Both the position numbers and the translations under genes were made by a program. From positions 2,211,851 to 2,275,850 of the forward strand of contig JACTAT010000001.1 of NCBI GenBank assembly GCA_014526335.1: a DNA stretch of 64,000 bases, given 5' to 3'. This DNA comes from Chrysaora quinquecirrha. Taxonomy: Eukaryota; Cnidaria; Scyphozoa; Semaeostomeae; Pelagiidae. Numbering within the stretch: position 1 is the stretch's first letter; each line of letters begins with the position of its first letter. This document shows, piece by piece, positions 21,901 through 57,900 of the stretch. The notes below the pieces were generated by a model. That model saw only the letters and a list, made by a program, of their open reading frames with translations. It was not told the origin of the DNA and made no database searches.

Positions 21901-24900
21901 AATTACAAAAGCAAATGAGTGAACAAAGGGTAACTATCGCTCTATTTTGTAATACTGGTTAATTGTGTTAATAATTCACCCTGAAAGTTCAATAATGTGT
22001 AATAAAACCAATGTCAAAGGCTATATGCCAGGGGGTTCATGCCGGTCTTATTAGATAATTCTGTAAGAAACCTTTGTCCTATGTTGTGGTTGTGTTGAAA
22101 ACTCAAGACTAGTCCAGCTTAACGTTTCTGATTGGCTCATCCCATGTCTTCGCCTTGGTGTACATTTTCAAGTAACTATACTGTCCAGTGTTATACAAAA
22201 ACCCCCCAAAAACACCATAACGAATTTCCAATCTTTGTGCCTATTACAAAAATAACAAGTTTCTAATACCAAAAGACAATTAGCCCTTTCACTGGTTGTT
22301 ATATACGTACGTGTAAAACTGAACAATTTAAATTTGTCTGAGATTGGTATGCTACCAGGGAATTGTGAAATTTCAAAGAGTTATGCAACCTTTTGTGAAA
22401 CATTGATAATTTTTAAGCTGTACAGAGCTTCAGAATTGGCCTTTGTCATTTTTTTCGGTCTGTTCTGTGAGTGTCATACAAAAAACTATATGGCTTTATC
22501 CAATGCCCTATGACGTTTGTTGCAGGCGGACAACTCACTATTGCAATTATGTTGTTTATTGCAATACATACGTGATTAACATTAATGGTTAATCCTCTAA
22601 TAATCCTGAATTGTAAAATTGCGTCCTATACGTTACGGCATCAAATGGGGTTTTCATGTGGTGAAAATTATAAAAGGACCTGAATCATCACATTCAAGGT
22701 TAATTATAGGAAATCGACAAGATTAAAGCTGGCACAGAGCAGTGACTCTCGAAATCCATGAAAAGAATATTGTCTTTTGGTATTTCATATTTTGCTTTGA
22801 AATTTTAGGTTCTTCAGCGAGATTTATCACAAGGTGTACAAGAAATCAATCACGTATTAGATTGTGGACATGATTTGATAGATGGTCGTATGGATGCTCA
22901 TGGAACTGATGATATACAGAATCAGATCGATTACATTGCTGTCAAATGGAAGGACATCACGTTTGCAGCCAATGAAAGACAAACACAGTTGGAGGAAGCC
23001 ATTGCAAAGGCATTCCATCGTGACATCACTTCCTTGCAAATTTGGATTGAAAATACTGAGAAGAATGTGGACCGTCTTGTCAAGAGAAAACCTAGCGAGA
23101 GAGAAATTGAGCAGTACATTAAGGTAAGAGTTTCTGAATCTATTCTTGAATTATTTGGAAGGAAATTTAACTTTATAGATCATGTGGCCTTATCTGGCTA
23201 AACAAATATATAGCATAGCCCCAGCCGGCTGAAGATTAAAGATCGAGGAGTCTTCTAAGGCCCCATACACTAATTATAAGGCAATTTACACTAATTATAC
23301 ACTAATTATAACCCCATACACTAATTCTAAGGCCCTTTATAAGAAAGTTTTTTTGGCCAGTAATGAAACTTTCTTAGATATTTCATGTTTTCAGTACCAA
23401 AACTTTCACGTGACTTCCTTAGCATATGTTTTGCGAATGCATTATTGCTGCGCATGCACAGTTAAAGGCATTGTAAGAATGGCATGAATACCGCGTACTA
23501 ACTACCGAAGATTTTTGCCTTTTATATAAGCGAAAATACGAAAGAGAACTCTCTTATGTTTCAATAATCCAGCAGTGAACTTTCTTAAATTTTTAAGAAG
23601 TTGAGAACTACTTTCTTATAAACCACCTTTACAAAAAACTTGTAGGGCGTTGGACAGTAATGATAGATTTTTCCACAAATTGCTGAACTGCATCATCAAA
23701 AGGCTAATGAAAGTTCCATTGAGCCAATGAGTTCATTGAAATTGCCGCCTGCCTTTATAGTTAAAAATATTACTTGCAAATTCAATATAAGCGTCTCAAT
23801 TTTTCGTAGGAGTTACTGGTTGAGATAAGAACTTATGAACACGTGATTTATGTGATTCATTTGATCGCAAATGATTTGATTCAGTCTGGTGGTGAAGATG
23901 CCAAACAAATTGAACAAATAAAAGCTCAAATTGACAAGAATTGGTTAAAGTTGGACAGGAAATTTCAAGCTTCAGCAATTTTTAAGGGACGAATAACATT
24001 GCATTTCCCTGGAGAAGTTAGATACAGAGACCCAGACGAAGAGGTACAATAAAACAACACTTTGTTTTTTCTTTGTTTGTTTGGTTATTTGTTAAATTGT
24101 TTGTTTGTTTCTGTGATTGTTTTTTGTTTGCTTGCTTAGATGTTGGTTTCGTTGTTGTTGCTGTAGAGCAGCGTGAAGCTCCTGCGTAGCAGAATATAAC
24201 CGTGGTACATTTCGAATTTTGTATGTTTGTTTGTGACCTGTTTGTTACCAAGGTTTCTATTTCTCTGTTTACAGTTTCTCTCAGTTCTGCCTGAATCAAG
24301 AAAACGGCGACTAACTGACAACTACCACGAGTGCACTACCGAAAGCAAAGTCCCACTGCTTCAGGATACTTCTGAAGTCATCATTCCTGATGAAGAAAGC
24401 CAGATGGAGAGCCAACCTGAGGATAGTTACCTCTTGCAATCTGATGAATCAAGTCCTAGAACACAGGTAGTCACTGAAGAACACAAGGTCTTTGCAGTTG
24501 ACGAAACAACAACTCAGGATCAGTTGACTGGAAGTCCATTTGTTAATATTGAGGTAAAAAGAACATCAAAGAAAGAAAAAGATCCTGAGAAAGATGACAT
24601 AGAATCAACAACACCAAAGAAGTTAAGTTTTCAGGCAACCAAGATTAAACCAATACAGATCTCTTCACTTGATGGAAAAATCAAAAGTCGAGAAGAAATA
24701 CCAACCATTGCAGATCAGTCCCTAATTGATAAAGATGGTCGTGTTGTACGCAAGACAATAACCGTGAGGAAAAGGATTGTAAAGAGAATCATCCGTTTGC
24801 CAGATGGAACAAGACAAGAAATCGAAGAAGAAGTTCCAGTTTCTGACTCTGAAGACAGGACTGACACGTTTGAAGTGATCGAGCGTGTTGAAGCAGAGCC

Positions 24901-27900
24901 TGCCAAACCAGAAGAGCATGCACCTAAAGAAGAACCAACAGAAGAGGTTGTTACGCCAATGGAAGTAACTGTAGAAGAATCATTGCCTTTTGAGCCTGAG
25001 CAGAAATATCCCGAACATGCAGAGCACCCAGAGGAGCCTGTGAGCATGATAGAAGAAGATGGTCGTGTTGTACGCAAGACAATAACCGTGAGGAAAAGGA
25101 TTGTTAAGAGAATCATCCGTTTGCCAGATGGAACAAGACAAGAAATCGAAGAGGAAGTTCCAGTTTCTGATGCTGAAGAGAAGCATGACACGTTTGAGGT
25201 GATCAAGCATGATGAACCAGAGCCTGGCAGACCGGCAGAAATGAAATTTGTCGTTGCTGAAGAGAAGCCAACGATGCCTGACAAAGTGTCGGCAAAGGAG
25301 CCAAGGCATGTTGAAAGGGTGTATGTGACACGCATCTTGAGGCAGCCAGATGGAACTGAGCGAGTGCTTGAAACATCCGAAACAGTTTCTCCTTTGCAGC
25401 CTGAACCTGAAGATGAAAAGCCAGAAAAGGTTGAAAAGGTAAAAGACAGCAAGGGACGTGTAATCAAGACTGTCACTCACAGTCCAGTGTTTGTGGTGAG
25501 AAAGAGAAAAGTTGTGAAGAAGAGCCGAGTCCTACCCGATGGCAAGAAGGAACCGGAAGAGACAAGTGTTGTTGAGCCAGAAGAAACAAAAGAGATTGAA
25601 GCACCCATCATCAAACGTGTTGTAAAACGTGTTACGCACGACCGAGATGGAAGGGATAAGGTTGTGCAGGAGCAGGTCAATGTGAAGCCATTTGAAGTAA
25701 TTGAAACAAAGGAAGATTCCAAGCCTGAAGTGAGTGAAAAACGGGAAAGAGGCAAAACTGTGCGAACTGTCAAGAGAAAGATAGTTGAAACCAGGCAGCA
25801 AAAGATCACGAAGAAAGTGACTAAACGACCTGACGGCAAACAAGATGGACCTATAGAAGAGGAGGTTATCAAACCTGTTGAGCCTGCCAACTACAGGATT
25901 GTGCGCAAAACTGTACGACATCCAGATGGCACTGAGAAGGTGACAGAAGAGCCTGATTTCACCATGCCAGATGATGCAAAAGAACCGACAGTTGAAGAAG
26001 TTAAAGACCGACGCGGCACTGTTGTGCGAAGGATTACTCTGAAACCTGTGCCTATGATCACAACAAGAAAGGTGTACCGAACTATCATCATTGCTCCAGA
26101 TGGCAGGGAAGAAAGTGTGCAAGAAAGGGTCGAAGAGAGAGGACAGCCTGGCAAACCGGAAGAGCATGCACCTGTGGAAGAGCCAATGGAAGAAAAGGTT
26201 TTGACGCCAATGGAAGTAACAGTTGAAGAAGCATTGCCCGCTGAGCCTGAAGAGAAGCAGCCAGAACAAGTGGAGCAGCCAGACAAGTATGAGGAGATGG
26301 TAGATGAATATGGTCGTGTTATTCGCAAGACAATAACGGTGAGAACAAGGATTGTGAAGAGAATCGTCCGCCTACCAGATGAAAGGACACAGGAGATTGA
26401 AGAAGAAGTTCCAGTTTCTGACTCTGAAGACAGGACTGACACGTTTGAAGTGATCGAGCGTGTTGAAGCAGAGCCTGCCAAACCAGAAGAGCATGCACCT
26501 AAAGAAGAACCAACAGAAGAGGTTGTTACGCCAATGGAAGTAACTGTAGAAGAATCATTGCCTTTTGAGCCTGAGCAGAAATATCCCGAACATGCAGAGC
26601 ACCCAGAGGAGCCTGTGAGCATGATAGAAGAAGATGGTCGTGTTGTACGCAAGACAATAACCGTGAGGAAAAGGATTGTTAAGAGAATCATCCGTTTGCC
26701 AGATGGAACAAGACAAGAAATCGAAGAGGAAGTTCCAGTTTCTGATGCTGAAGAGAAGCGTGACACGTTTGAGGTGATCAAGCATGATGAACCAGAGCCT
26801 GGCAGACCGGCAGAAATGAAATTTGTCGTTGCTGAAGAGAAGCCAACGATGCCTGACAAAGTGTCGGCAAAGGAGCCAAGGCATGTTGAAAGGGTGTATG
26901 TGACACGCATCTTGAGGCAGCCAGATGGAACTGAGCGAGTGCTTGAAACATCCGAAACAGTTTCTCCTTTGCAGCCTGAACCTGAAGATGAAAAGCCAGA
27001 AAAGGTTGAAAAGGTAAAAGACAGCAAGGGACGTGTAATCAAGACTGTCACTCACAGTCCAGTGTTTGTGGTGAGAAAGAGAAAAGTTGTGAAGAAGAGC
27101 CGAGTCCTACCGGATGGCAAGAAGGAACCCGAAGAGACAAGTGTTGTTGAGCCAGAAGAAACAAAAGAGATTGAAGCACCCATCATCAAACGTGTTGTAA
27201 AACGTGTTACATACGACCGAGATGGAAGGGAGAAGGTTGTGCAGGAGCAGGTCAATGTGAAGCCATTTGAAGTAATTGAAACAAAGGAAGATTCCAAGCC
27301 TGAAGTGAGTGAAAAACGGGAAAGAGGCAAAACTGTGCGAACTGTCAAGAGAAAGATAGTTGAAACCAGGCAGCAAAAGATCACGAAGAAAGTGACTAAA
27401 CGACCTGACGGCAAACAAGATGGACCTATAGAAGAGGAGGTTATCAAACCTGTTGAGCCTGCCAACTACAGGATTGTGCGCAAAACTGTACGACATCCAG
27501 ATGGCACTGAGAAGGTGACAGAAGAGCCTGATTTCACCATGCCAGATGATGCAAAAGAACCGACAGTTGAAGAAGTTAAAGACCGACGCGGCACTGTTGT
27601 GCGAAGGATTACTCTGAAACCTGTGCCTATGATCACAACAAGAAAGGTGTACCGAACTATCATCATTGCTCCAGATGGCAGGGAAGAAAGTGTGCAAGAA
27701 AGGGTCGAAGAGAGAGGACAGCCTGGCAAACCGGAAGAGCATGCACCTGTGGAAGAGCCAACGGAAGAAAAGGTTTTGACGCCAATGGAAGTAACAGTTG
27801 AAGAAGCATTGCCCGCTGAGCCTGAAGAGAAGCAGCCAGAACAAGTGGAGCAGCCAGACAAGTATGAGGAGATGGTAGATGAATATGGTCGTGTTGTTCG

Positions 27901-30900
27901 CAAGACAATAACGGTGAGAACAAGGATTGTGAAGAGAATCGTCCGCCTACCAGATGGAAGGACACAGGAGATTGAAGAAGAAGTTCCAGTTTCTGACTCT
28001 GAAGACAGGACTGACACGTTTGAAGTGATCGAGCGTGTTGAAGCAGAGCCTGCCAAACCAGAAGAGCATGCACCTAAAGAAGAACCAACAGAAGAGGTTG
28101 TTACGCCAATGGAAGTAACTGTAGAAGAATCATTGCCTTTTGAGCCTGAGCAGAAATATCCCGAACATGCAGAGCACCCAGAGGAGCCTGTGAGCATGAT
28201 AGAAGAAGATGGTCGTGTTGTATGCAAGACAATAACCGTGAGGAAAAGGATTGTTAAGAGAATCATCCGTTTGCCAGATGGAACAAGACAAGAAATCGAA
28301 GAGGAAGTTCCAGTTTCTGATGCTGAAGAGAAGCGTGACACGTTTGAGGTGATCAAGCATGATGAACCAGAGCCTGGCAGACCGGCAGAAATGAAATTTG
28401 TCGTTGCTGAAGAGAAGCCAACGATGCCTGACAAAGTGTCGGCAAAGGAGCCAAGGCATGTTGAAAGGGTGTATGTGACACGCATCTTGAGGCAGCCAGA
28501 TGGAACTGAGCGAGTGCTTGAAACATCCGAAACAGTTTCTCCTTTGCAGCCTGAACCTGAAGATGAAAAGCCAGAAAAGGTTGAAAAGGTAAAAGACAGC
28601 AAGGGACGTGTAATCAAGACTGTCACTCACAGTCCAGTGTTTGTGGTGAGAAAGAGAAAAGTTGTGAAGAAGAGCCGAGTCCTACCCGATGGCAAGAAGG
28701 AACCGGGAAGAGACAAGTGTTGTTGAGCCAGAAGAAACAAAAGAGATTGAAGCACCCATCATCAAACGTGTTGTAAAACGTGTTACGCACGACCGAGATG
28801 GAAGGGAGAAGGTTGTGCAGGAGCAGGTCAATGTGAAGCCATTTGAAGTAATTGAAACAAAGGAAGATTCCAAGCCTGAAGTGAGTGAAAAAACGGGAAA
28901 GAGGCAAAACTGTGCGAACTGTCAAGAGAAAGATAGTTGAAACCAGGCAGCAAAAGATCACGAAGAAAGTGACTAAACGACCTGACGGCAAACAAGATGG
29001 ACCTATAGAAGAGGAGGTTATCAAACCTGTTGAGCCTGCCAACTACAGGATTGTGCGCAAAACTGTACGACATCCAGATGGCACTGAGAAGGTGACAGAA
29101 GAGCCTGATTTCACCATGCCAGATGATGCAAAAGAACCGACAGTTGAAGAAGTTAAAGACCGACGCGGCACTGTTGTGCGAAGGATTACTACGAAACCTG
29201 TGCCTATGATCACAACAAGAAAGGTGTACCGAACTATCATCATTGCTCCAGATGGCAGGGAAGAAAGTGTGCAAGAAAGGGTCAAGAGAGAGGACAGCCT
29301 GGCAAACCGGAAGAGCATGCACCTGTGGAAGAGCCAACGGAAGAAAAGGTTTTGACGCCAATGGAAGTAACAGTTGAAGAAGCATTGCCCGCTGAGCCTG
29401 AAGAGAAGCAGCCAGAACAAGTGGAGCAGCCAGACAAGTATGAGGAGATGGTAGATGAATATGGTCGTGTTGTTCGCAAGACAATAACGGTGAGAACAAG
29501 GATTGTGAAGAGAATCGTCCGCCTACCAGATGGAAGGACACAGGAGATTGAAGAAGAAGTTCCAGTTTCTGACTCTGAAGACAGGACTGACACGTTTGAA
29601 GTGATCGAGCGTGTTGAAGCAGAGCCTGCCAAACCAGAAGAGCATGCACCTAAAGAAGAACCAACAGAAGAGGTTGTTACGCCAATGGAAGTAACTGTAG
29701 AAGAATCATTGCCTTTTGAGCCTGAGCAGAAATATCCCGAACATGCAGAGCACCCAGAGGAGCCTGTGAGCATGATAGAAGAAGATGGTCGTGTTGTACG
29801 CAAGACAATAACCGTGAGGAAAAGGATTGTTAAGAGAATCATCCGTTTGCCAGATGGAACAAGACAAGAAATCGAAGAGGAAGTTCCAGTTTCTGATGCT
29901 GAAGAGAAGCGTGACACGTTTGAGGTGATCAAGCATGATGAACCAGAGCCTGGCAGACCGGCAGAAATGAAATTTGTCGTTGCTGAAGAGAAGCCAACGA
30001 TGCCTGACAAAGTGTCGGCAAAGGAGCCAAGGCATGTTGAAAGGGTGTATGTGACACGCATCTTGAGGCAGCCAGATGGAACTGAGCGAGTGCTTGAAAC
30101 ATCCGAAACAGTTTCTCCTTTGCAGCCTGAACCTGAAGATGAAAAGCCAGAAAAGGTTGAAAAGGTAAAAGACAGCAAGGGACGTGTAATCAAGACTGTC
30201 ACTCACAGTCCAGTGTTTGTGGTGAGAAAGAGAAAAGTTGTGAAGAAGAGCCGAGTCCTACCGGATGGCAAGAAGGAACCCGAAGAGACAAGTGTTGTTG
30301 AGCCAGAAGAAACAAAAGAGATTGAAGCACCCATCATCAAACGTGTTGTAAAACGTGTTACGCACGACCGAGATGGAAGGGAGAAGGTTGTGCAGGAGCA
30401 GGTCAATGTGAAGCCATTTGAAGTAATTGAAACAAAGGAAGATTCCAAGCCTGAAGTGAGTGAAAAACGGGAAAGAGGCAAAACTGTACGAACTGTCAAG
30501 AGAAAGATAGTTGAAACCAGGCAGCAAAAGATCACTAAGAAAGTGACTAAACGACCTGACGGCAAACAAGATGGACCTATAGAAGAGGAGGTTATGAAAC
30601 CTGTTGAGCCTGCCAACTACAGGATTGTGCGCAAAACTGTACGACATCCAGATGGCACTGAGAAGGTGACAGAAGAGCCTGATTTCACCATGCCAGATGA
30701 TGCAAAAGAACCGACAGTTGAAGAAGTTAAAGACCGACGCGGCACTGTTGTGCGAAGGATTACTACGAAACCTGTGCCTATGATCACAACAAGAAAGGTG
30801 TACCGAACTATCATCATTGCTCCAGATGGCAGGGAAGAAAGTGTGCAAGAAAGGGTCGAAGAGAGAGGACAGCCTGGCAAACCGGAAGAGCATGCACCTG

Positions 30901-33900
30901 TGGAAGAGCCAACGGAAGAAAAGGTTTTGACGCCAATGGAAGTAACAGTTGAAGAAGCATTGCCCGCTGAGCCTGAAGAGAAGCAGCCAGAACAAGTGGA
31001 GCAGCCAGACAAGTATGAGGAGATGGTAGATGAATATGGTCGTGTTGTTCGCAAGACAATAACGGTGAGAACAAGGATTGTGAAGAGAATCGTCCGCCTA
31101 CCAGATGGAAGGACACAGGAGATTGAAGAAGAAGTTCCAGTTTCTGACTCTGAAGACAGGACTGACACGTTTGAAGTGATCGAGGTGTTGAAGCAGAGCC
31201 TGCCAAACCAGAAGAGCATGCACCTAAAGAAGAACCAACAGAAGAGGTTGTTACGCCAATGGAAGTAACTGTAGAAGAATCATTGCCTTTTGAGCCTGAG
31301 CAGAAATATCCCGAACATGCAGAGCACCCAGAGGAGCCTGTGAGCATGATAGAAGAAGATGGTCGTGTTGTATGCAAGACAATAACCGTGAGGAAAAGGA
31401 TTGTTAAGAGAATCATCCGTTTGCCAGATGGAACAAGACAAGAAATCGAAGAGGAAGTTCCAGTTTCTGATGCTGAAGAGAAGCGTGACACGTTTGAGGT
31501 GATCAAGCATGATGAACCAGAGCCTGGCAGACCGGCAGAAATGAAATTTGTCGTTGCTGAAGAGAAGCCAACGATGCCTGACAAAGTGTCGGCAAAGGAG
31601 CCAAGGCATGTTGAAAGGGTGTATGTGACACGCATCTTGAGGCAGCCAGATGGAACTGAGCGAGTGCTTGAAACATCCGAAACAGTTTCTCCTTTGCAGC
31701 CTGAACCTGAAGATGAAAAGCCAGAAAAGGTTGAAAAGGTAAAAGACAGCAAGGGACGTGTAATCAAGACTGTCACTCACAGTCCAGTGTTTGTGGTGAG
31801 AAAGAGAAAAGTTGTAAAGAAGAGCCGAGTCCTACCGGATGGCAAGAAGGAACCGAAGAGACAAGTGTTGTTGAGCCAGAAGAAACAAAAGAGATTGAAG
31901 CACCCATCATCAAACGTGTTGTAAAACGTGTTACGCACGACCAAGATGGAAGGGAGAAGGTTGTGCAGGAGCAGGTCAATGTGAAGCCATTTGAAGTAAT
32001 TGAAACAAAGGAAGATTCCAAGCCTGAAGTGAGTGAAAACGGAAAGAGGCAAAACTGTGCGAACTGTCAAGAGAAAGATAGTTGAAACCAGGCAGCAAAA
32101 GATCACTAAGAAAGTGACTAAACGACCTGACGGCAAACAAGATGGACCTATAGAAGAGGAGGTTATGAAACCTGTTGAGCCTGCCAACTACAGGATTGTG
32201 CGCAAAACTGTACGACATCCAGATGGCACTGAGAAGGTGACAGAAGAGCCTGATTTCACCATGCCAGATGATGCAAAAGAACCGACAGTTGAAGAAGTTA
32301 AAGACCGACGCGGCACTGTTGTGCGAAGGATTACTACTGAAACCTGTGCCTATGATCACAACAAGAAAGGTGTACCGAACTATCATCATTGCTCCAGATG
32401 GCAGGGAAGAAAGTGTGCAAGAAAGGGTCAAGAGAGAGGACAGCCTGGCAAACCGGAAGAGCATGCACCTGTGGAAGAGCCAACGGAAGAAAAGGTTTTG
32501 ACGCCAATGGAAGTAACAGTTGAAGAAGCATTGCCCGCTGAGCCTGAAGAGAAGCAGCCAGAACAAGTGGAGCAGCCAGACAAGTATGAGGAGATGGTAG
32601 ATGAATATGGTCGTGTTGTTCGCAAGACAATAACGGTGAGAACAAGGATTGTGAAGAGAATCGTCCGCCTACCAGATGGAAGGACACAGGAGATTGAAGA
32701 AGAAGTTCCAGTTTCTGACTCTGAAGACAGGACTGACACGTTTGAAGTGATCGAGCGTGTTGAAGCAGAGCCTGCCAAACCAGAAGAGCATGCACCTAAA
32801 GAAGAACCAACAGAAGAGGTTGTTACGCCAATGGAAGTAACTGTAGAAGAATCATTGCCTTTTGAGCCTGAGCAGAAATATCCCGAACATGCAGAGCACC
32901 CAGAGGAGCCTGTGAGCATGATAGAAGAAGATGGTCGTGTTGTATGCAAGACAATAACCGTGAGGAAAAGGATTGTTAAGAGAATCATCCGTTTGCCAGA
33001 TGGAACAAGACAAGAAATCGAAGAGGAAGTTCCAGTTTCTGATGCTGAAGAGAAGCGTGACACGTTTGAGGTGATCAAGCATGATGAACCAGAGCCTGGC
33101 AGACCGGCAGAAATGAAATTTGTCGTTGCTGAAGAGAAGCCAACGATGCCTGACAAAGTGTCGGCAAAGGAGCCAAGGCATGTTGAAAGGGTGTATGTGA
33201 CACGCATCTTGAGGCAGCCAGATGGAACTGAGCGAGTGCTTGAAACATCCGAAACAGTTTCTCCTTTGCAGCCTGAACCTGAAGATGAAAAGCCAGAAAA
33301 GGTTGAAAAGGTAAAAGACAGCAAGGACGTGTAATCAAGACTGTCACTCACAGTCCAGTGTTTGTGGTGAGAAAGAGAAAAGTTGTGAAGAAGAGCCGAG
33401 TCCTACCGGATGGCAAGAAGGAACCCAAGAGACAAGTGTTGTTGAGCCAGAAGAAACAAAAGAGATTGAAGCACCCATCATCAAACGTGTTGTAAAACGT
33501 GTTACGCATACGACCGAGATGGAAGGGATAAGGTTGTGCAGGAGCAGGTCAATGTGAAGCCATTTGAAGTAATTGAAACAAAGGAAGATTCCAAGCCTGA
33601 AGTGAGTGAAAACGGAAAGAGGCAAAACTGTGCGAACTGTCAAGAGAAAGATAGTTGAAACCAGGCAGCAAAAGATCACGAAGAAAGTGACTAAACGACC
33701 TGACGGCAAACAAGATGGACCTATAGAAGAGGAGGTTATCAAACCTGTTGAGCCTGCCAACTACAGGATTGTGCGCAAAACTGTACGACATCCAGATGGC
33801 ACTGAGAAGGTGACAGAAGAGCCTGATTTCACCATGCCAGATGATGCAAAAGAACCGACAGTTGAAGAAGTTAAAGACCGACGCGGCACTGTTGTGCGAA

Positions 33901-36900
33901 GGATTACTCTGAAACCTGTGCCTATGATCACAACAAGAAAGGTGTACCGAACTATCATCATTGCTCCAGATGGCAGGGAAGAAAGTGTGCAAGAAAGGGT
34001 CGAAGAGAGAGGACAGCCTGGCAAACCGGAAGAGCATGCACCTGTGGAAGAGCCAACGGAAGAAAAGGTTTTGACGCCAATGGAAGTAACAGTTGAAGAA
34101 GCATTGCCCGCTGAGCCTGAAGAGAAGCAGCCAGAACAAGTGGAGCAGCCAGACAAGTATGAGGAGATGGTAGATGAATATGGTCGTGTTGTTCGCAAGA
34201 CAATAACGGTGAGAACAAGGATTGTGAAGAGAATCGTCCGCCTACCAGATGGAAGGACACAGGAGATTGAAGAAGAAGTTCCAGTTTCTGACTCTGAAGA
34301 CAGGACTGACACGTTTGAAGTGATCGAGCGTGTTGAAGCAGAGCCTGCCAAACCAGAAGAGCATGCACCTAAAGAAGAACCAACAGAAGAGGTTGTTACG
34401 CCAATGGAAGTAACTGTAGAAGAATCATTGCCTTTTGAGCCTGAGCAGAAATATCCCGAACATGCAGAGCACCCAGAGGAGCCTGTGAGCATGATAGAAG
34501 AAGATGGTCGTGTTGTATGCAAGACAATAACCGTGAGGAAAAGGATTGTTAAGAGAATCATCCGTTTGCCAGATGGAACAAGACAAGAAATCGAAGAGGA
34601 AGTTCCAGTTTCTGATGCTGAAGAGAAGCGTGACACGTTTGAGGTGATCAAGCATGATGAACCAGAGCCTGGCAGACCGGCAGAAATGAAATTTGTCGTT
34701 GCTGAAGAGAAGCCAACGATGCCTGACAAAGTGTCGGCAAAGGAGCCAAGGCATGTTGAAAGGGTGTATGTGACACGCATCTTGAGGCAGCCAGATGGAA
34801 CTGAGCGAGTGCTTGAAACATCCGAAACAGTTTCTCCTTTGCAGCCTGAACCTGAAGATGAAAAGCCAGAAAAGGTTGAAAAGGTAAAAGACAGCAAGGG
34901 ACGTGTAATCAAGACTGTCACTCACAGTCCAGTGTTTGTGGTGAGAAAGAGAAAAGTTGTGAAGAAGAGCCGAGTCCTACCGGATGGCAAGAAGGAACCC
35001 AAGAGACAAGTGTTGTTGAGCCAGAAGAAACAAAAGAGATTGAAGCACCCATCATCAAACGTGTTGTAAAACGTGTTACGCATACGACCGAGATGGAAGG
35101 GAGAAGGTTGTGCAGGAGCAGGTCAATGTGAAGCCATTTGAAGTAATTGAAACAAAGGAAGATTCCAAGCCTGAAGTGAGTGAAAACGGAAAGAGGCAAA
35201 ACTGTGCGAACTGTCAAGAGAAAGATAGTTGAAACCAGGCAGCAAAAGATCACGAAGAAAGTGACTAAACGACCTGACGGCAAACAAGATGGACCTATAG
35301 AAGAGGAGGTTATCAAACCTGTTGAGCCTGCCAACTACAGGATTGTGCGCAAAACTGTACGACATCCAGATGGCACTGAGAAGGTGACAGAAGAGCCTGA
35401 TTTCACCATGCCAGATGATGCAAAAGAACCGACAGTTGAAGAAGTTAAAGACCGACGCGGCACTGTTGTGCGAAGGATTACTCTGAAACCTGTGCCTATG
35501 ATCACAACAAGAAAGGTGTACCGAACTATCATCATTGCTCCAGATGGCAGGGAAGAAAGTGTGCAAGAAAGGGTCGAAGAGAGAGGACAGCCTGGCAAAC
35601 CGGAAGAGCATGCACCTGTGGAAGAGCCAACGGAAGAAAAGGTTTTGACGCCAATGGAAGTAACAGTTGAAGAAGCATTGCCCGCTGAGCCTGAAGAGAA
35701 GCAGCCAGAACAAGTGGAGCAGCCAGACAAGTATGAGGAGATGGTAGATGAATATGGTCGTGTTATTCGCAAGACAATAACGGTGAGAACAAGGATTGTG
35801 AAGAGAATCGTCCGCCTACCAGATGGAAGGACACAGGAGATTGAAGAAGAAGTTCCAGTTTCTGACTCTGAAGACAGGACTGACACGTTTGAAGTGATCG
35901 AGGTGTTGAAGCAGAGCCTGCCAAACCAGAAGAGCATGCACCTAAAGAAGAACCAACAGAAGAGGTTGTTACGCCAATGGAAGTAACTGTAGAAGAATCA
36001 TTGCCTTTTGAGCCTGAGCAGAAATATCCCGAACATGCAGAGCACCCAGAGGAGCCTGTGAGCATGATAGAAGAAGATGGTCGTGTTGTATGCAAGACAA
36101 TAACCGTGAGGAAAAGGATTGTTAAGAGAATCATCCGTTTGCCAGATGGAACAAGACAAGAAATCAAGAGGAAGTTCCAGTTTCTGATGCTGAAGAGAAG
36201 CGTGACACGTTTGAGGTGATCAAGCATGATGAACCAGAGCCTGGCAGACCGGCAGAAATGAAATTTGTCGTTGCTGAAGAGAAGCCAATGATGCCTGACA
36301 AAGTGTCGGCAAAGGAGCCAAGGCATGTTGAAAGGGTGTATGTGACACGCATCTTGAGGCAGCCAGATGGAACTGAGCGAGTGCTTGAAACATCCGAAAC
36401 AGTTTCTCCTTTGCAGCCTGAACCTGAAGATGAAAAGCCAGAAAAGGTTGAAAAGGTAAAAGACAGCAAGGGACGTGTAATCAAGACTGTCACTCACAGT
36501 CCAGTGTTTGTGGTGAGAAAGAGAAAAGTTGTGAAGAAGAGCCGAGTCCTACCGGATGGCAAGAAGGAACCGAAGAGACAAGTGTTGTTGAGCCAGAAGA
36601 AACAAAAGAGATTGAAGCACCCATCATCAAACGTGTTGTAAAACGTGTTACGCACAACCGAGATGGAAGGGAGAAGGTTGTGCAGGAGCAGGTCAATGTG
36701 AAGCCATTTGAAGTAATTGAAACAAAGGAAGATTCCAAGCCTGAAGTGAGTGAAAAACGGGAAAGAGGCAAAACTGTGCGAACTGTCAAGAGAAAGATAG
36801 TTGAAACCAGGCAGCAAAAGATCACTAAGAAAGTGACTAAACGACCTGACGGCAAACAAGATGGACCTATAGAAGAGGAGGTTATGAAACCTGTTGAGCC

Positions 36901-45900: not shown

Positions 45901-48900
45901 GACAGCAAGGACGTGTAATCAAGACTGTCACTCACAGTCCAGTGTTTGTGGTGAGAAAGAGAAAAGTTGTGAAGAAGAGCCGAGTCCTACCGGATGGCAA
46001 GAAGGAACCCAAGAGACAAGTGTTGTTGAGCCAGAAGAAACAAAAGAGATTGAAGCACCCATCATCAAACGTGTTGTAAAACGTGTTACGCACGACCGAG
46101 ATGGAAGGGAGAAGGTTGTGCAGGAGCAGGTCAATGTGAAGCCATTTGAAGTAATTGAAACAAAGGAAGATTCCAAGCCTGAAGTGAGTGAAAAACGGGA
46201 AAGAGGCAAAACTGTGCGAACTGTCAAGAGAAAGATAGTTGAAACCAGGCAGCAAAAGATCACGAAGAAAGTGACTAAACGACCTGACGGCAAACAAGAT
46301 GGACCTATAGAAGAGGAGGTTATCAAACCTGTTGAGCCTGCCAACTACAGGATTGTGCGCAAAACTGTACGACATCCAGATGGCACTGAGAAGGTGACAG
46401 AAGAGCCTGATTTCACCATGCCAGATGATGCAAAAGAACCGACAGTTGAAGAAGTTAAAGACCGACGCGGCACTGTTGTGCGAAGGATTACTACGAAACC
46501 TGTGCCTATGATCACAACAAGAAAGGTGTACCGAACTATCATCATTGCTCCAGATGGCAGGGAAGAAAGTGTGCAAGAAAGGGTCGAAGAGAGAGGACAG
46601 CCTGGCAAACCGGAAGAGCATGCACCTGTGGAAGAGCCAACGGAAGAAAAGGTTTTGACGCCAATGGAAGTAACAGTTGAAGAAGCATTGCCCGCTGAGC
46701 CTGAAGAGAAGCAGCCAGAACAAGTGGAGCAGCCAGACAAGTATGAGGAGATGGTAGATGAATATGGTCGTGTTGTTCGCAAGACAATAACGGTGAGAAC
46801 AAGGATTGTGAAGAGAATCGTCCGCCTACCAGATGGAAGGACACAGGAGATTGAAGAAGAAGTTCCAGTTTCTGACTCTGAAGACAGGACTGACACGTTT
46901 GAAGTGATCGAGCGTGTTGAAGCAGAGCCTGCCAAACCAGAAGAGCATGCACCTAAAGAAGAACCAACAGAAGAGGTTGTTACGCCAATGGAAGTAACTG
47001 TAGAAGAATCATTGCCTTTTGAGCCTGAGCAGAAATATCCCGAACATGCAGAGCACCCAGAGGAGCCTGTGAGCATGATAGAAGAAGATGGTCGTGTTGT
47101 ACGCAAGACAATAACCGTGAGGAAAAGGATTGTTAAGAGAATCATCCGTTTGCCAGATGGAACAAGACAAGAAATCAAGAGGAAGTTCCAGTTTCTGATG
47201 CTGAAGAGAAGCGTGACACGTTTGAGGTGATCAAGCATGATGAACCAGAGCCTGGCAGACCGGCAGAAATGAAATTTGTCGTTGCTGAAGAGAAGCCAAC
47301 GATGCCTGACAAAGTGTCGGCAAAGGAGCCAAGGCATGTTGAAAGGGTGTATGTGACACGCATCTTGAGGCAGCCAGATGGAACTGAGCGAGTGCTTGAA
47401 ACATCCGAAACAGTTTCTCCTTTGCAGCCTGAACCTGAAGATGAAAAGCCAGAAAAGGTTGAAAAGGTAAAAGACAGCAAGGGACGTGTAATCAAGACTG
47501 TCACTCACAGTCCAGTGTTTGTGGTGAGAAAGAGAAAAGTTGTAAAGAAGAGCCGAGTCCTACCGGATGGCAAGAAGGAACCCGAAGAGACAAGTGTTGT
47601 TGAGCCAGAAGAAACAAAAGAGATTGAAGCACCCATCATCAAACGTGTTGTAAAACGTGTTACGACGACCGAGATGGAAGGGAGAAGGTTGTGCAGGAGC
47701 AGGTCAATGTGAAGCCATTTGAAGTAATTGAAACAAAGGAAGATTCCAAGCCTGAAGTGAGTGAAAAACGGGAAAGAGGCAAAACTGTGCGAACTGTCAA
47801 GAGAAAGATAGTTGAAACCAGGCAGCAAAAGATCACGAAGAAAGTGACTAAACGACCTGACGGCAAACAAGATGGACCTATAGAAGAGGAGGTTATCAAA
47901 CCTGTTGAGCCTGCCAACTACAGGATTGTGCGCAAAACTGTACGACATCCAGATGGCACTGAGAAGGTGACAGAAGAGCCTGATTTCACCGTGCCAGATG
48001 ATGCAAAAGAACCGACAGTTGAAGAAGTTAAAGACCGACGCGGCACTGTTGTGCGAAGGATTACTACGAAACCTGTGCCTATGATCACAACAAGAAAGGT
48101 GTACCGAACTATCATCATTGCTCCAGATGGCAGGGAAGAAAGTGTGCAAGAAAGGGTCGAAGAGAGAGGACAGCCTGGCAAACCGGAAGAGCATGCACCT
48201 GTGGAAGAGCCAATGGAAGAAAATGTTTTGACGCCAATGGAAGTAACAGTTGAAGAAGCATTGCCCGCTGAGCCTGAAGAGAAGCAGCCAGAACAAGTGG
48301 AGCAGCCAGACAAGTATGAGGAGATGGTAGATGAATATGGTCGTGTTGTTCGCAAGACAATAACGGTGAGAACCAGGATTGTGAAGAGAATCGTCCGCCT
48401 ACCAGATGGAAGGACACAGGAGATTGAAGAAGAAGTTCCAGTTTCTGACTCTGAAGACAGGACTGACACGTTTGAAGTGATCGAGCGTGTTGAAGCAGAG
48501 CCTGCCAAACCAGAAGAGCATGCACCTAAAGAAGAACCAACAGAAGAGGTTGTTACGCCAATGGAAGTAACTGTAGAAGAATCATTGCCTTTTGAGCCTG
48601 AGCAGAAATATCCCGAACATGCAGAGCACCCAGAGGAGCCTGTGAGCATGATAGAAGAAGATGGTCGTGTTGTACGCAAGACAATAACCGTGAGGAAAAG
48701 GATTGTTAAGAGAATCATCCGTTTGCCAGATGGAACAAGACAAGAAATCGAAGAGGAAGTTCCAGTTTCTGATGCTGAAGAGAAGCGTGACACGTTTGAG
48801 GTGATCAAGCATGATGAACCAGAGCCTGGCAGACCGGCAGAAATGAAATTTGTCGTTGCTGAAGAGAAGCCAACGATGCCTGACAAAGTGTCGGCAAAGG

Positions 48901-51900
48901 AGCCAAGGCATGTTGAAAGGGTGTATGTGACACGCATCTTGAGGCAGCCAGATGGAACTGAGCGAGTGCTTGAAACATCCGAAACAGTTTCTCCTTTGCA
49001 GCCTGAACCTGAAGATGAAAAGCCAGAAAAGGTTGAAAAGGTAAAAGACAGCAAGGGACGTGTAATCAAGACTGTCACTCACAGTCCAGTGTTTGTGGTG
49101 AGAAAGAGAAAAGTTGTAAAGAAGAGCCGAGTCCTACCGGATGGCAAGAAGGAACCCGAAGAGACAAGTGTTGTTGAGCCAGAAGAAACAAAAGAGATTG
49201 AAGCACCCATCATCAAACGTGTTGTAAAACGTGTTACGCACGACCGAGATGGAAGGGAGAAGGTTGTGCAGGAGCAGGTCAATGTGAAGCCATTTGAAGT
49301 AATTGAAACAAAGGAAGATTCCAAGCCTGAAGTGAGTGAAAAACGGGAAAGAGGCAAAACTGTGCGAACTGTCAAGAGAAAGATAGTTGAAACCAGGCAG
49401 CAAAAGATCACGAAGAAAGTGACTAAACGACCTGACGGCAAACAAGATGGACCTATAGAAGAGGAGGTTATCAAACCTGTTGAGCCTGCCAACTACAGGA
49501 TTGTGCGCAAAACTGTACGACATCCAGATGGCACTGAGAAGGTGACAGAAGAGCCTGATTTCACCATGCCAGATGATGCAAAAGAACCGACAGTTGAAGA
49601 AGTTAAAGACCGACGCGGCACTGTTGTGCGAAGGATTACTACGAAACCTGTGCCTATGATCACAACAAGAAAGGTGTACCGAACTATCATCATTGCTCCA
49701 GATGGCAGGGAAGAAAGTGTGCAAGAAAGGGTCGAAGAGAGAGGACAGCCTGGCAAACCGGAAGAGCATGCACCTGTGGAAGAGCCAACGGAAGAAAAGG
49801 TTTTGACGCCAATGGAAGTAACAGTTGAAGAAGCATTGCCCGCTGAGCCTGAAGAGAAGCAGCCAGAACAAGTGGAGCAGCCAGACAAGTATGAGGAGAT
49901 GGTAGATGAATATGGTCGTGTTGTTCGCAAGACAATAACGGTGAGAACAAGGATTGTGAAGAGAATCGTCCGCCTACCAGATGGAAGGACACAGGAGATT
50001 GAAGAAGAAGTTCCAGTTTCTGACTCTGAAGACAGGACTGACACGTTTGAAGTGATCGAGCGTGTTGAAGCAGAGCCTGCCAAACCAGAAGAGCATGCAC
50101 CTAAAGAAGAACCAACAGAAGAGGTTGTTACGCCAATGGAAGTAACTGTAGAAGAATCATTGCCTTTTGAGCCTGAGCAGAAATATCCTGAACATGCAGA
50201 GCACCCAGAGGAGCCTGTGAGCATGATAGAAGAAGATGGTCGTGTTGTACGCAAGACAATAACCGTGAGGAAAAGGATTGTTAAGAGAATCATCCGTTTG
50301 CCAGATGGAACAAGACAAGAAATCGAAGAGGAAGTTCCAGTTTCTGATGCTGAAGAGAAGCGTGACACGTTTGAGGTGATCAAGCATGATGAACCAGAGC
50401 CTGGCAGACCGGCAGAAATGAAATTTGTCGTTGCTGAAGAGAAGCCAACGATGCCTGACAAAGTGTCGGCAAAGGAGCCAAGGCATGTTGAAAGGGTGTA
50501 TGTGACACGCATCTTGAGGCAGCCAGATGGAACTGAGCGAGTGCTTGAAACATCCGAAACAGTTTCTCCTTTGCAGCCTGAACCTGAAGATGAAAAGCCA
50601 GAAAAGGTTGAAAAGGTAAAAGACAGCAAGGGACGTGTAATCAAGACTGTCACTCACAGTCCAGTGTTTGTGGTGAGAAAGAGAAAAGTTGTAAAGAAGA
50701 GCCGAGTCCTACCGGATGGCAAGAAGGAACCCGAAGAGACAAGTGTTGTTGAGCCAGAAGAAACAAAAGAGATTGAAGCACCCATCATCAAACGTGTTGT
50801 AAAACGTGTTACGCACGACCGAGATGGAAGGGAGAAGGTTGTGCAGGAGCAGGTCAATGTGAAGCCATTTGAAGTAATTGAAACAAAGGAAGATTGCAAG
50901 CCTGAAGTGAGTGAGAAACGGGAAGGAGGCAAAACTGTGCGAACTGTCAAAGAAACATTTACTGAAGTTTTGATACGAAAAGTTTGGAAAACTATTGTTA
51001 GGGATTTAAATGGAGAAGAAGTTCAACCTCAGACCGAGGACATTATCGTTCCTGTTCCCACTAGTGATGTTTCCATATTTCCAAAAGACTGTTCTGAACT
51101 CTTTTCCGCTGAGGTCAATCGAGACGTTCCTCTTGATTATCGTTATAATAGTGAGATCTTCCCAGTTGAGGAAAAGCCCGACTCGACAGGTCAAATTAGT
51201 CGCAAAGTCAGAGCGAAGCCTATCGTTACTCTAACAAAGCGTCGTGTTTACAGAGAAATAGTGATTTCCCCAGATGGAAGTGAGGAGTCCGTGAAAGAGA
51301 GAGTAGAGGAAAGTTCAGAACGTGATAGAGACGAACCATCGGCTTCAGTTAAGCTTTATGACAGTATTTTCGAGGAGAGTAAACGAAAGGCCAAACCTGA
51401 AGATTCAGTTGTTATCGAGGATGAGACTTTCAAGAAACCGCGACTTATCGAGAGAGTTTACGTTACTCGTATCCTGAGGCATTTAGATGGAACTGAACAA
51501 GTCATCGAGAAATCGGAAACTGTTGCACCTCTGAAACCAGTGCCCGAAGATGATCAGCCGGAACATACTGATGGGGAGAAAGACAAAAGAGGCCGAATTG
51601 TAAGGAAAGTCACTGTTACTCCATCTTTTATTTCCCGAAAGAAAACAGAATTAAAGAAAGGCCGTGTTCTACCGGATGGTAATGAAAGTTTGCACGAGTC
51701 AGTCATTGTGGAGCCCGAACAAACAAGTGAGATAGTTGTACCGGTCATAAAACGTATTGTGAAGCCAGCAAGCACTGGCCCTAACAGACGATCTGGAATA
51801 TTCGATGAGGCTGAGTATATTGAACCTTTTTCTGTCTTCGAAATGAAAGAGCTTACGAGACCCGAGGTCACTGATAAACTGGAACGGGGAGAGCCTGTAA

Positions 51901-54900
51901 CATTGATCACGAGAAAAGTCTCCGAAGTGACGAAAGAGAGAATGATAAAAAGATTGGACGAAAGCCTGATGGTAGAATTGACGGACCAGAAGAACAGACG
52001 ATTTTCAGACCAGTGGAACCTGTGAGTTTTGAAGTTGTGCCAAAAACTGTGCGACAAGATGACGGAACAGAATCTGTTGAAGATGATGTTGTGTATTCCT
52101 GGCCAAAAGATGTTTCTCCTAAGGTTGAAGAAGTGAAAGATAAAAAGGGACATGTCGTCAAAAGGATTTTCACTAAACGACTACCTGTCATTACTGCAAA
52201 GAAGGTATACAGAACGATTATTGTTGAACCAAATGGTCAGGAGAAAAGTGTCCAAGAAAGGGTTGTTGAACAACAGCAGCCTGGAAGACCGAAAGAAGAT
52301 GCACCAGGAAGAGATATCCCAGATAGAGATACACAAGAAGACACCATTGAACCTCAAGAAGCGTCACAACAAGAATATTCCCCTGAATTCGACTCTTCTT
52401 ATCCAACTGTCCAGCAAAGAAGCGTTACTGTCAGCAAGACGTCTGTTACGAAAACAAGAATAGTCAAACGAACAATTGTTGCAACAGATGGAACCAAGAA
52501 GGTCGTTGAAGAGGAAGTTCCAATTCAGGAATATCCCACTGAATTCGAAACTCCATCTGAGCCTGATGACGTCAGAAAGACTACTGTGACAAGAACAGTG
52601 AAAAGAACAATTGTTTCACCAGATGGCACCAAGCAGGAGATTGAAGAAGAAGTTCCAGTTCAGGAATATCCTACTGAATTTGCTTCTCCTTCTGAACCAG
52701 AAGATGTCAGTAAACCTGTGACAAGAACAGTGAGAAGAACAATCGTTTCACCAGATGGCACAAAGCAGGTCATTGAAGAAGAAGTTCCAGTTCAGGAATA
52801 TCCTACTGAATTCAAATCTCCATCTGAACCTGAAGATGTCAGTAAACCTGCGACAAGAACAGTGAAAAGAACAATCGTTTCACCAGATGGCACAAAGCAG
52901 GTCTCCTTCTGAACCAGAAGATGTCAGTAAACCTGTGACAAGAACAGTGAGAAGAACAATCGTTTCACCAGATGGCACAAAGCAGGTCATTGAAGAAGAA
53001 GTTCCAGTTCAGGAATATCCTACTGAATTCAAATCTCCATCTGAACCTGAAGATGTCAGTAAACCTGCGACAAGAACAGTGAAAAGAACAATCGTTTCAC
53101 CAGATGGCACCAAACAGGTGATTGAAGAAGAAGTTCCAGTTCAGGAATATCCTACTGAATTCAAATCTCTATCTGAACCAGATGATGTCAGCAAGACTTC
53201 TGTAACAAGAACTGTAAAAAGAACAATCGTTTCACCAGATGGTACAAAGAAGGTGATTGAAGAAGAAGTTCCAGTTTCCCCTTACGGAGCTTTTGTTGAT
53301 CAAGTTGCTCCATATGATTCCGTCAAGCGTCGAGGTCGTAAAGAAATTCAGAGAATTTATGTGACAAAGATCTTACGAGAGAGAAATGGCAATGAGCGTG
53401 TGCTAGAGACATCAGAGATTGTCGCACCAATTTACGATGATATTGACGATAAGCCGAAAGAAAGTGTACAAGAGATTAAAGACAACAGTGGAAAAGTCGT
53501 AAGAAAGTTGATATCAAGTCCCGTTTTTGTCAATAAAGAGAAAGTCGTAGAAAAATCTTACAAACAAGAGCCGGATGGCGATGAAACCTTGACGCATACT
53601 AAAGTTATTTTCCTGAATCTTCTAAAGATACAAAGCCTCAGCTTATCCAGCCTCTCACTGATGAGAAGGCTGAAAGTGAGAAATTTGCTGATGCTCCGGA
53701 GAAGGTTAGGCCCTTCTTTGTGATAACAACGAAAGAAGAAAGTGCTCCTGAAATTGCTGAAAGTCGTGACAAGGACAAGACAGTACGTAATGTTAAGAAG
53801 AGAATCCGTGACGTAACACAGCAAAATGTTGTACGGAGAGTTGAAAGGACGGTTGATGGAAAACAACTTGGTGTTATTGAAGAAATATTTGTTAGTCCTG
53901 TTGAACCAGTAAGTTGGAAATTCGTGAAGAAAGTGGTTGTACAGCCGGATGGATCGGAGGAATTGATAGAAGAGCCTGAATATGTTATGCCTGATGATGC
54001 CAAAGAGACTGTTGATGAGATCAAGGATAGGAATGGTAAGGTTATAAAGAAAGTCGTCAAAAAGCCGACGCCGATGATAACAGCAAGACGTATCTACAGA
54101 ACTATTATTGTGTCACCCACTGGTGCGCAGTTGAAGTGTATTGAGGATGTAGAAGAAACTGCAGAGCCACATCCAGAGAAGCCAGGAGAAGAGGTCATCA
54201 ATGAACCACAGTTTGTTACATCTAAGGAATTGCAGCCGTTACCTGTTAAAGAAACACTGCTTTCCTCACATCCTCTGGATGAGGAAGTCGAGGAAATCCT
54301 AGAAGAGTGCCCGAGGTTTGTCATCAGAGCAGGGAAGAAGTTCCACGCTGTTAATGGCAAAGCCCCCGAGAAACAAAGTCCAGTCACAGCTGAAACCATC
54401 CATCGTAAGCCAAAACACATTGAACGTCTGTATACAACTACGATATTAAGGCCGCTTAGTGGAGTAGACAGAGTGCTTGAATCTTCAGAAGCGATCCTAC
54501 CATTAGAGCCTTCCGTGGAGGATGATTATCCTGACAGGACAGATGATGTCAAGGACAAGAGGGGTAATGTGATAAAGAAAATCTCAACATCGCCAACATT
54601 TGTAGCCAGGCAAAAGACACTTGTTAGAAAGAGTGTGGTAATGCCTGATGGTAAGGAACAACCAAAAGGCGCCGTTGTTGTTGCAAGTGAAGAACCCAAA
54701 CAAACCCAGCCTCTTGTATTGAAAAGAGTTGTGAAGAAGAAAGTTATTGATGAAACTGGCAAAGAGAGTGTTATCGAAGAAACCAAGTCACTGAAACCAT
54801 ATCATCTTAGGTTAACAAAACAACTCCCCGATCCTGAGATCTCGCTCAAGAAACAACACAACCGAACAGTTCGCATTGTTAAAAGTAAGTTAACAGACAC

Positions 54901-57900
54901 TATTCAGAAAAAGGCTGTCGAGAGAGTTACTAAAAAACCTGACGGTAAACAAGATGGACCCAAAGAACAACTTGTTATCGAGCCTGTCGAAGTCGTAGAC
55001 TACAAATTTGTACCAACTAAAAGTCGCACGCCAGATGGAAAAGAAATCGTTGTTGAAGAACCGCAATATACTTTGCCCGAGCATGCGTACTCTGAGCCAG
55101 AAGAAATCAAGGATAACAAGGGTACAGTAATCAGAAGAATAACAAACGTTCCTCTGCCGGTTGTAACTGCTAGGAAGGTTTATAGAGTTGTGATATTAAG
55201 TCCGGAGGGTGAAGAGCTAAGTACCGAGGAGCGGGTTGAAGATCAGGAACTTCCTAAAGAGCCAGAAGATGATAAACCAGACGCCCCTGTCGCGCTGTTC
55301 CCCGCGTTTGAAACCATCAAACCAACCAAAGTCGGACGCTCTACTCCTTCACCCGAGAGACGAGCCTCAGCACCGGAAAAAGCTGGCAAAAAATCGCCGG
55401 TTAGTGATAGAAGATCCAAGTCTCCGGATCAGAAAAGAACAAGTCCGATGCAGCGGTCTCCAGAGCCTTCAAGAAAATCAAAAGAATTGCCGAGAAAGAA
55501 ATCCACCTCGCCGGATAGAAAAGCAAAGCCTGAACCTGTGGAAGAAATCGTCATGCCGGTTTCATTTAATGAAGTCGAATCAATGCCGGATATCTTTGAA
55601 AGTCTGCCGGACTCTGATTTAGTCATGGGTGAGAAGTTCCCAAAGAAGATCACAGCGGAAGAAAAGGAAGACCTAAGCAAAATGATATTCCCTGAAGAAA
55701 AGGTCGAGGAAGATACTGTGCATAGAGCGGTTCCAAAAGAGCGTTCTTTGCCAAAGCGCTTCTCTCGTGCTGTAAAGAAAGTCACCTACATGAATTACTG
55801 GCAGAGGTTGAAAGAAAATGTCCAGAGAAGACCATCATTACAACCTGTAGAGGAACTGATTGTTAGGCTTGGCACGACTGAGAGTAAACTGAAAGTCATA
55901 TGGGAAAAGATAATTGAAATTACTGAAATCACGATTGATTATGATTCATTTATGCTTTGGTTAACGTTTGTAGAACGTGAGCTTACTTCCTTGAAGCCAA
56001 TCAACTCAAAATATCCTGTTTTGGAAGAACAGAAGATATACCACGAGGTAGGGATCGATTAAGAAGTTCTTCTTAGTCTTTCTAACTGTTACAAGACTAC
56101 TGTGATTGATTCACAGATTTCGTGCTCTGTCTTGCAGCATAGCAAATCGTTGGAACGAAATCAAAGTATTTTATCACTCCTTTATGTCTCTACTATCATT
56201 ACTATTTAAGACTTTTAATAAAGATTTGTAATATTAGAAGGTGCTCTAGTATTGTGGTCTAATCCTGCTAGTTCTAGCATAGTGAGATCAGAACTTAAGC
56301 CCCAGCCAGGGTGCCTTCGCAGGTCTCATCAACTTCTGAGATCCTTGCACCTGATGCTAAAACACATCGTTACTATATTAAGGCCCTGGCCAAATCATGA
56401 ACATTGTTGGTCAAACATTTCAGATGTGCTTTACAAGACGTTTGACCGTTTGACCATGTCTCAAAACATTGCTTGTAGAACTTGCTTGCTTGGTAATGTT
56501 TTTAATACTTCAAAAACATTTCCTGCTTACTTTAGGCTAAATATATTTGTTGAGCAATGCTTTGTGATGTGGCCAAGCGACCATACATTTTATGGACAAA
56601 CCATTCCTGATGTTTGGCCAGGGGCCTAAGAGGATTTGATGCTCCCTGGCCAACTGAAGTAACTTGAGGATCAGGTTGGCCTGAGGATTCGAAAGGAGGA
56701 AGGTTCTCATCTGTTACGTTTCATTTCATAAACATCTTGTTCCTTATTTGCAGAGCTTGCATAAAGATTTGGTTGATCATGTCCCTTTCAAAGAAGCACT
56801 GGAAAAAGTGACGAAAGAACTTTCAGATTTCGTTGACTCGGAGCCAGAACGAGAACAAATCGAACAGGAACTCGGAGAAGTAACATCTCGCTTTGACCGA
56901 CTTTTCAAGTTATCAGAAGATCGTAAGAAGCAAATTGAAGATGTTGAGCCTCTATCTAAACAACATTGCGATTATATCAAACCAGTTGAAGAGCTGAACG
57001 CTGAAGCTGAGAAAGTTTTAAAGGAAAAATCGCCTGGGTTTATCGATCTAGAATTACTTGAAGATGAAATGGTTACTTTGAAGGTATGATGATTCTTTTT
57101 TGATTTGCAAAAACATGCTGCCTGCTGAAGTACGTTAATGTGAACAAGTGATGCTTCTCCTCGTACACAGAGTCACATAAATACTAATAGTTCTTGTCTA
57201 TTTTTGTTACTGCAGATCATATGACTTTTCGCATTTCGCCTATCTTTCAGGATTTGAAAAGACGCCTTGACGAAGACAAGCCAAACAAACAACACGCAAA
57301 AGAAACTTCTGACAAGATTCTTCGCTTCCCCAATGACAATGTTGAAAAGAAGCCTGTGAATGAACACTGTGATAAAGTCTTGAAGAAGAGAGAGGAAATT
57401 GAACGATCAGTTGATGGAAAGATTGCTACTTTAGAGAAGCAAATTAGCAAGGCAAAGAAGTTCTACATGGGTGTTGCAACAATCGACACGTGGGCACCGC
57501 AGATTGATGATGCTTTGGAACAAGATCAAGTGGCTGCCAAAGAGCCTGAGGAAATCAAACAGCAACTCAAGAAACTAGATGTAAGTTTCTATGGTTTTTG
57601 AACCAGATCTTTATATCACGTAACCTTTTATAGAGATTTAGCTTTACAATTCTACGCCAAAACCCTACCACTATCTTCGAAAATCAAATCGATTTCTTAC
57701 CAACAAACCAATATTTATTTTTCATAGGAATTCTAATTAATTACAAGGAAATTTTTGCGACTCAGTAAAGGCAATAGGCTGGTATTCACCTTTACCTGTT
57801 TTACGTAGTTTTAATGCTGTAATTTTGTATTCAGAACCTTCAGAAAGAAATTGACGAGCAGAGAGCTACTGTCACAATGGTTGTTGATAATGGTAGATGG

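Follow-up and report, generated by a model that had tools for sequence, protein, structure and literature searches.

Large exons that code for repeats are known inside the spectraplakins of bilaterian animals, among them Short stop (Shot), dystonin, and MACF1. In Shot, the plakin repeat region corresponds to exon 12 of shot-RH and occurs in one isoform, and a passage of the same source calls such regions "unexplored" even in Drosophila (PMC9320987). Epiplakin (EPPK1), also of the plakin family, carries tandem domains within a single exon and varies in copy number between species (PMC8782857), although this protein has only plakin repeat domains, has its entire coding sequence in one exon, and is without a spectrin rod. 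Outside this family, the variable-number tandem repeat (VNTR) exons of human MUC12 and MUC16 are very long single coding exons of tandem repeats, with MUC12 alleles coding for up to 23,080 residues according to a 2026 preprint (PMC13345508). Here, we analyzed a 64,000-nucleotide stretch of the genome of Chrysaora quinquecirrha (contig JACTAT010000001.1; hereafter the window, with position 1 as its first letter). Positions 24275..56047 of the plus strand probably constitute one exon in the middle of the rod of a spectraplakin, encoding 16.65 units of 525 residues that would serve as a long flexible spacer or multivalent docking rod.

Like those of Shot, dystonin, and MACF1, this exon is large, codes for repeats, and belongs to a spectraplakin, but its repeat is a different one. 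No plectin repeat was among the Pfam matches for positions 24275-28723, 50001-51980, and 53603-56047 of the giant exon, for one unit, or for P0109, P0004, and P0003 (P numbers are our labels for the compared proteins). The site is likely distinct as well. The repeat region of Shot lies between the plakin domain and the rod, an order with which a figure legend agrees, whereas the array in the orthologue from Rhopilema esculentum is located ~1,380 residues after the SH3 region. Plectin repeats have been dated to early Bilateria, and a true spectraplakin has been reported in a coral (PMC9145010); the locus described here points to a non-bilaterian lineage that filled the spectraplakin rod with a different, unnamed beta module. 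The human mucins are epithelial-barrier glycoproteins, in contrast to the intracellular cytolinker family treated here. An earlier note on this DNA ranked the exon among the largest coding exons of animals, which is a fair description, although it is not the record because MUC12 alleles are larger (PMC13345508).

Results

The giant coding exon (24275..56047, plus strand) measures 31,773 bp as assembled and has phase-0 ends, with an acceptor at 24275 and a donor at 56047; the exon starting at 56754 is also in phase 0. Scored with generic matrices, the acceptors gave values of 6.0 at 24275 and 7.1 at 56754, and the donor at 56047 gave 3.6. The preceding intron (24044..24274, plus strand) has GT at 24044 and AG before 24275, and its junction is shared by the Rhopilema protein P0111. 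The earlier note had described a good acceptor and donor, phase 0 at both ends, and in-frame joining of the spectrin flanks; its coordinates and phases are confirmed.

The exon opens with a non-repeated head of 453 bp (24275..24727), with the conserved start FLSVLPESRKRRL, for which relatives have MTILPETRKRRF. It is followed by a homogeneous tandem array (24728..50958) of 16.65 copies of a 1575-bp unit, more than 95% identical to the unit throughout and mostly more than 99%. The consensus of the 16 complete copies is 1575 bp, exactly 525 codons with no stops, in phase with both exon ends. In one example, the conserved module core lies at 25298..26146 (283 residues as folded; predicted all-beta) and the linker belonging to the same unit at 26147..26872 (242 residues; predicted disordered, with two isolated hairpins). 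Diverged modules extend 3' of the array (50959..55799) and are matched by P0002 and P0007; one of them was placed at 54422-55243, and they include a patch of 132-bp (44-residue) tandem repeats (52454..53276). A half spectrin repeat (55800..56047) closes the exon and is conserved in P0003, P0004, P0007, and P0107-P0111; all of these features are on the plus strand. Ahead of the half repeat is a stretch rich in Ser-Pro and Lys/Arg (55340-55537), also found in P0003 and P0107-P0110, which is possibly a phospho-regulated or microtubule-binding patch. Antisense to the array, on the minus strand of 24728-50958, open frames of 301-524 residues recur; they probably arise as a side effect of codon composition.

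The ratio of nonsynonymous to synonymous differences (pN/pS) between diverged segments was 0.36, 0.38, 0.54, 0.42, and 0.41 in frame, compared with 0.85 to 2.0 for ten controls in shifted frames, and the in-frame value was lower in all five comparisons. Coding status is thereby shown far beyond chance, with purifying selection between diverged copies.

Relatives were found for the 5' part of the exon (six) and for the 3' part (five). P0107 (5908 aa), P0108 (6357 aa), and P0109 (4870 aa) are each a single unbroken open reading frame (ORF) on European Nucleotide Archive (ENA) contigs, extending from exon start to donor over 17,664, 19,053, and 14,553 nt, respectively, without a stop. The first residues of these three are MTILPETRKR[RK]F, corresponding to FLSVLPESRKRRL in the window, and each reaches the counterpart of the exon's last residues, beyond which come a V codon and unrelated sequence. 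The V codon was seen in all six relatives whose ORF reaches this point (P0003, P0004, and P0107-P0110), as in the window, and a V codon followed by unrelated sequence is the expected look of an unspliced ORF that crosses a phase-0 GT donor. In the spliced models P0007 and P0111, spectrin sequence follows the exon end instead. P0007 is a EukProt model, 71% identical over the searched region, that contains the 3' junction. P0111 is an NCBI protein of 6934 aa from Rhopilema esculentum (Cnidaria, Scyphozoa), named "titin-like isoform X4," whose alignments cross both exon junctions (E 1.5e-40 and 6.3e-94). It represents the same gene: all 17 modelled flanking exons align to it in order (34-83% identical), and the gaps in these alignments, at most 37 residues long, fall where the exon model of the window is incomplete. 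As against the 16.65 copies in the window, P0111 has three array copies, with 3447 residues from one junction to the other. Across the four species measurable on DNA-level ORFs, exon size ranges from 14.6 to 31.8 kb. The proposal of a single exon free of internal introns is thus backed by the unbroken ORFs of 17.7, 19.1, and 14.6 kb and by both junctions in P0111, and the exon itself is very likely real.

Nine spectrin-repeat exons were modelled upstream (12836..24043, plus strand; starts at 12836, 15374, 16426, 17165, 17956, 19982, 21684, 22809, and 23810; several limits approximate) and eight downstream (56754..63582, plus strand; starts at 56754, 57251, 58378, 59276, 60182, 61197, 62168, and 63220; limits 58378, 60511, 61197, and 63582 approximate), in keeping with the earlier placement of the exon in the middle of a spectrin rod. 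Pfam Spectrin matched the joined translation of the upstream flank (E 7.4e-19) and the downstream flank (E 1.5e-23). The former designation of a spectrin-repeat gene can be narrowed to spectraplakin. All nine upstream exons align in order to residues 885-1673 of P0111 (49-83% identical, gaps up to 32 residues), and all eight downstream exons to residues 5122-6019 (34-57% identical, gaps up to 37 residues) and, also in order, to residues 839-1735 of P0007. The downstream exons from 56754, 57251, 59276, and 62168 are each exactly 330 bp, one repeat length, in phase 0-0 and with GT after them, and the exon at 60182-60508 is 327 bp.

A search with the rod, which scored 1,924 candidates of ~2,130-6,780 residues and thus had longer nesprins outside the comparison, returned 99 matches. 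Wherever these had a descriptive name, it was dystonin, Short stop, or BPAG1, the exceptions being P0104 (GAR domain protein) and P0105 (hypothetical). No such name is attached to P0007 and several others. The precomputed domain list of P0111 includes a plakin SH3_10 domain, which lies outside this window and was seen in the Rhopilema orthologue only, and this SH3 region aligns with residues 771-977 of mouse dystonin (E 5e-21). Residues 1-50 of P0111 form a membrane-anchor-like stretch ahead of the plakin SH3 in place of CH domains. Some dystonin isoforms start with a membrane-anchor-like stretch instead of CH domains. As judged from these sequence comparisons, the gene most likely groups with the spectraplakins (dystonin / Short stop family), and "titin-like" looks like an automatic name.

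The same core module is found in P0107-P0111. According to a pattern search, the core is 274-275 residues long in the window unit, P0001, P0004, P0107, P0109, and P0111, 277 in P0002, 269 in P0005, and 254 in the single P0110 match; the pattern missed the other four of 12 relatives. Unit periods were 510, 575, 623, 607, and 529 residues in P0107-P0111 and 378/383 in P0001, compared with 525 in the window. The profile counted 8, 8, 5, at least 4, and 3 array copies in P0107-P0111, so the 16.65 copies in the window are the longest array seen among the compared relatives. Beyond the array, diverged modules of similar score series follow, four in each of P0107-P0110 and three in P0111. Within a species, copies reach 100% identity in P0107-P0110, and the figure is 99.3% both in P0111 and for the three clean copies of the window, whereas the identity of window copies to copies of P0107-P0111 is at most 0.72, and this combination is a signature of concerted evolution.

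For one unit, AlphaFold2 predicted an all-beta core (residues 1-282) with a predicted local distance difference test (pLDDT) score of 71-94 in ten-residue blocks, followed by a linker mostly below 50 with two hairpins; the whole-unit mean was 66.7, with a predicted template modeling (pTM) score of 0.50. The linker of the consensus unit has a net charge of -31 and 28 prolines. The core is predicted to consist of beta-hairpins with PDG turns. Over two tandem units, 18 of 20 xDG turns have more positive charge before the turn than after it, and the same bias was noted in relatives (60/82, 26/29, 9/11, and 33/45). No convincing Pfam family, PDB sequence, or PDB fold match was obtained for the module.

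Discussion

We favor a model in which each unit would pair a conserved ~275-residue core, predicted to be all-beta, with a linker for which disorder is predicted. A mid-rod string of folded beads, joined by linkers that are acidic and rich in proline, would be long and flexible and might also be extensible, and any binding site in the unit would be repeated ~20 times. Unequal crossing-over or gene conversion may keep the copies alike within a species and set their number; because the unit is 525 whole codons within one exon, unequal exchange would alter copy number without loss of frame. The array likely lets an actin- or membrane-side N terminus sit far from the C terminus, and copy number would tune both reach and the count of binding sites. 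The putative role as a spacer stands at about even odds. Similarly balanced is the broader proposition that cnidarian spectraplakins hold an undescribed mid-rod all-beta family, expanded in one exon and homogenised in each species, whose reach follows copy number as a heritable molecular ruler, the array having grown here to ~20 modules in a single 31.8-kb exon.

Several observations weigh against the reading of 24275..56047 as one translated mid-rod exon of a spectraplakin. The donor at 24043 is weak (GAG/GTACAA, score -0.16), and the given sequence contains 49 indels and three further frame breaks. The single-exon reading comes from genome and protein sequence, and the support of P0111 for the junctions is at the protein level. 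The EukProt models P0002 and P0007 differ by ~36 residues within the exon; they are identical elsewhere and thus probably come from one species, in which a short intron at that place is possible. With regard to gene identity, dystrophin was the only PDB sequence that matched the downstream flank (E 5.9e-14), the CH pair lies outside the window and is absent from the domains listed for P0111 (isoform X4), and the EF-hands and GAS2-related (GAR) domain likewise lie outside and are missing from those listed for P0111 and for P0007. When the core was folded alone, AlphaFold2 returned the same strands with one confident model of five (means of 84.8, then 54.6 to 40.9). Finally, the 31 substitutions among array copies (11 synonymous, 20 nonsynonymous, and no stops) are close to the ratio of possible CpG transitions in the unit (28 synonymous, 67 nonsynonymous, and 9 stop), and there is no clear constraint between recent copies. 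The absence of stops, which has a chance of 0.06 by CpG-transition proportion, is perhaps the sole possible sign of constraint between them.

The assembly, in which the inner copies hold apparent consensus errors, underlies both the length of 31.8 kb and the figure of 10,600 codons. The 49 indel events all fall in array copies 3-15, with none in copies 1, 2, and 16, and they group at nine sites in mosaic combinations across copies. Seven of these sites lie no more than 1 nt from a CpG, as do 13% of positions (p 1.8e-5), and CpG, which takes up 6.6% of positions, contains 16 of the 30 variable sites (p 8e-12). By eye, the broken sequence at indel sites 517 and 920 resembles a merge of two variants held by other copies. 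The three breaks 3' of the array are located at ~51950, at 52685-53119, where a near-perfect 217-bp tandem duplication (132 + 85) shifts the frame by one within the 44-residue repeat patch, and at ~53610. Around the first break, residues 280-776 of P0002 align in one frame and residues 771-976 in the next, on adjoining DNA; around the last, P0002 up to residue 1073 and P0007 from residue 25 (1075 in P0002 numbering) likewise match in successive frames. Matches thus flank both breaks, and the protein is continuous there in that relative. The "clustered small breaks" of the earlier note are real in the sequence as given. The CpG-linked mosaic indels and merged variants are consistent with copies that truly differ at CpG sites and with a consensus drawn from mixed or mis-called reads, and we infer that the frame is broken by consensus errors at places where near-identical copies were indistinguishable. 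In such a setting the exon could be real and its length wrong, with copies over- or under-counted and a true size closer to that of the relatives (14.6-19.1 kb), or longer. The likeness of the array copies (mostly >99%), the apparent mixing of reads between them, the 3-8 array copies of relatives, and the finding that epiplakin copy numbers are hard to determine (PMC8782857) speak for an incorrect length; private variants present in some copies speak against it because they indicate that the array is not one copy pasted 16 times, and we regard a miscounted array as possible but not the likelier case.

Comparably doubtful is the idea that the array is mainly a binding platform, each core being like the TCP domain of CPAP and ~20 sites collecting partners. 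The CPAP TCP domain is an open beta-sheet with PDG turns that binds a STIL peptide. The long strands and PDG turns predicted here favor the idea, as the beta-meander of that domain (G-box) has PDG turns too (PMC3776556). In contrast, Tcp10_C scored 22.6 bits over 24275-28723, below the cut-off of 36, no individual stretch passed, and there was no match for a single unit. The Tcp10_C score in P0109 (50.5) passes, but no stretch passes alone and the best covers 13 residues; the family is also named in the precomputed Pfam lists of P0006 and P0107-P0111. Fold searches with the core yielded no confident match, and CPAP was not among the matches listed, an outcome that tells neither for nor against the likeness. 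Because the Pfam test for Tcp10_C failed in the window, the likeness to the CPAP domain is a lead only.

It is quite unlikely that the inner copies are truly broken and that the working gene relies only on outer parts that are intact or removes the array by splicing. Such decay would account for the 49 indels, for the stops that the assembled region shows in each of the three plus frames, and for the lack of visible selection between array copies. Set against it are the recurrence of the same few sites in mosaics (seven of nine near CpG), the clean state of copies 1, 2, and 16, and the unbroken ORFs of P0107-P0109 with 5-8 array copies; decay would moreover gather stops, yet none of the 31 substitutions makes one, although that absence has a chance of 0.06.

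Least probable of these alternatives is that the gene is a nesprin (SYNE, Msp300): Pfam Spectrin_SYNE1 also matches both flanks and nesprins can hold large repeated regions, but this family (PF25034) is listed for dystonins too and P0111 has a plakin SH3_10 domain matched to dystonin, with the caveat that candidates above ~6,800 residues were outside the rod search.

As one mid-rod spectraplakin exon, the locus offers a test bed for the splicing and translation of a ~30 kb coding exon, for how near-identical coding repeats are kept in frame, and for whether copy number tunes cytolinker length. It also cautions that errors of assembly and of naming ("titin-like") come easily with genes of this kind.

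Other features of the window

An open frame of 1242 residues occupies positions 3-3728 of the minus strand and runs off the left end of the window. It belongs to a BEL/Pao-type retrotransposon, with Peptidase_A17, DUF1759, and DUF1758 above the Pfam cut-off and RVT_1 just below. Two simple-repeat arrays lie outside the exons, one of 300 bp that is GAT-rich (12037-12336) and one of 318 bp made of TAAC (20324-20641).

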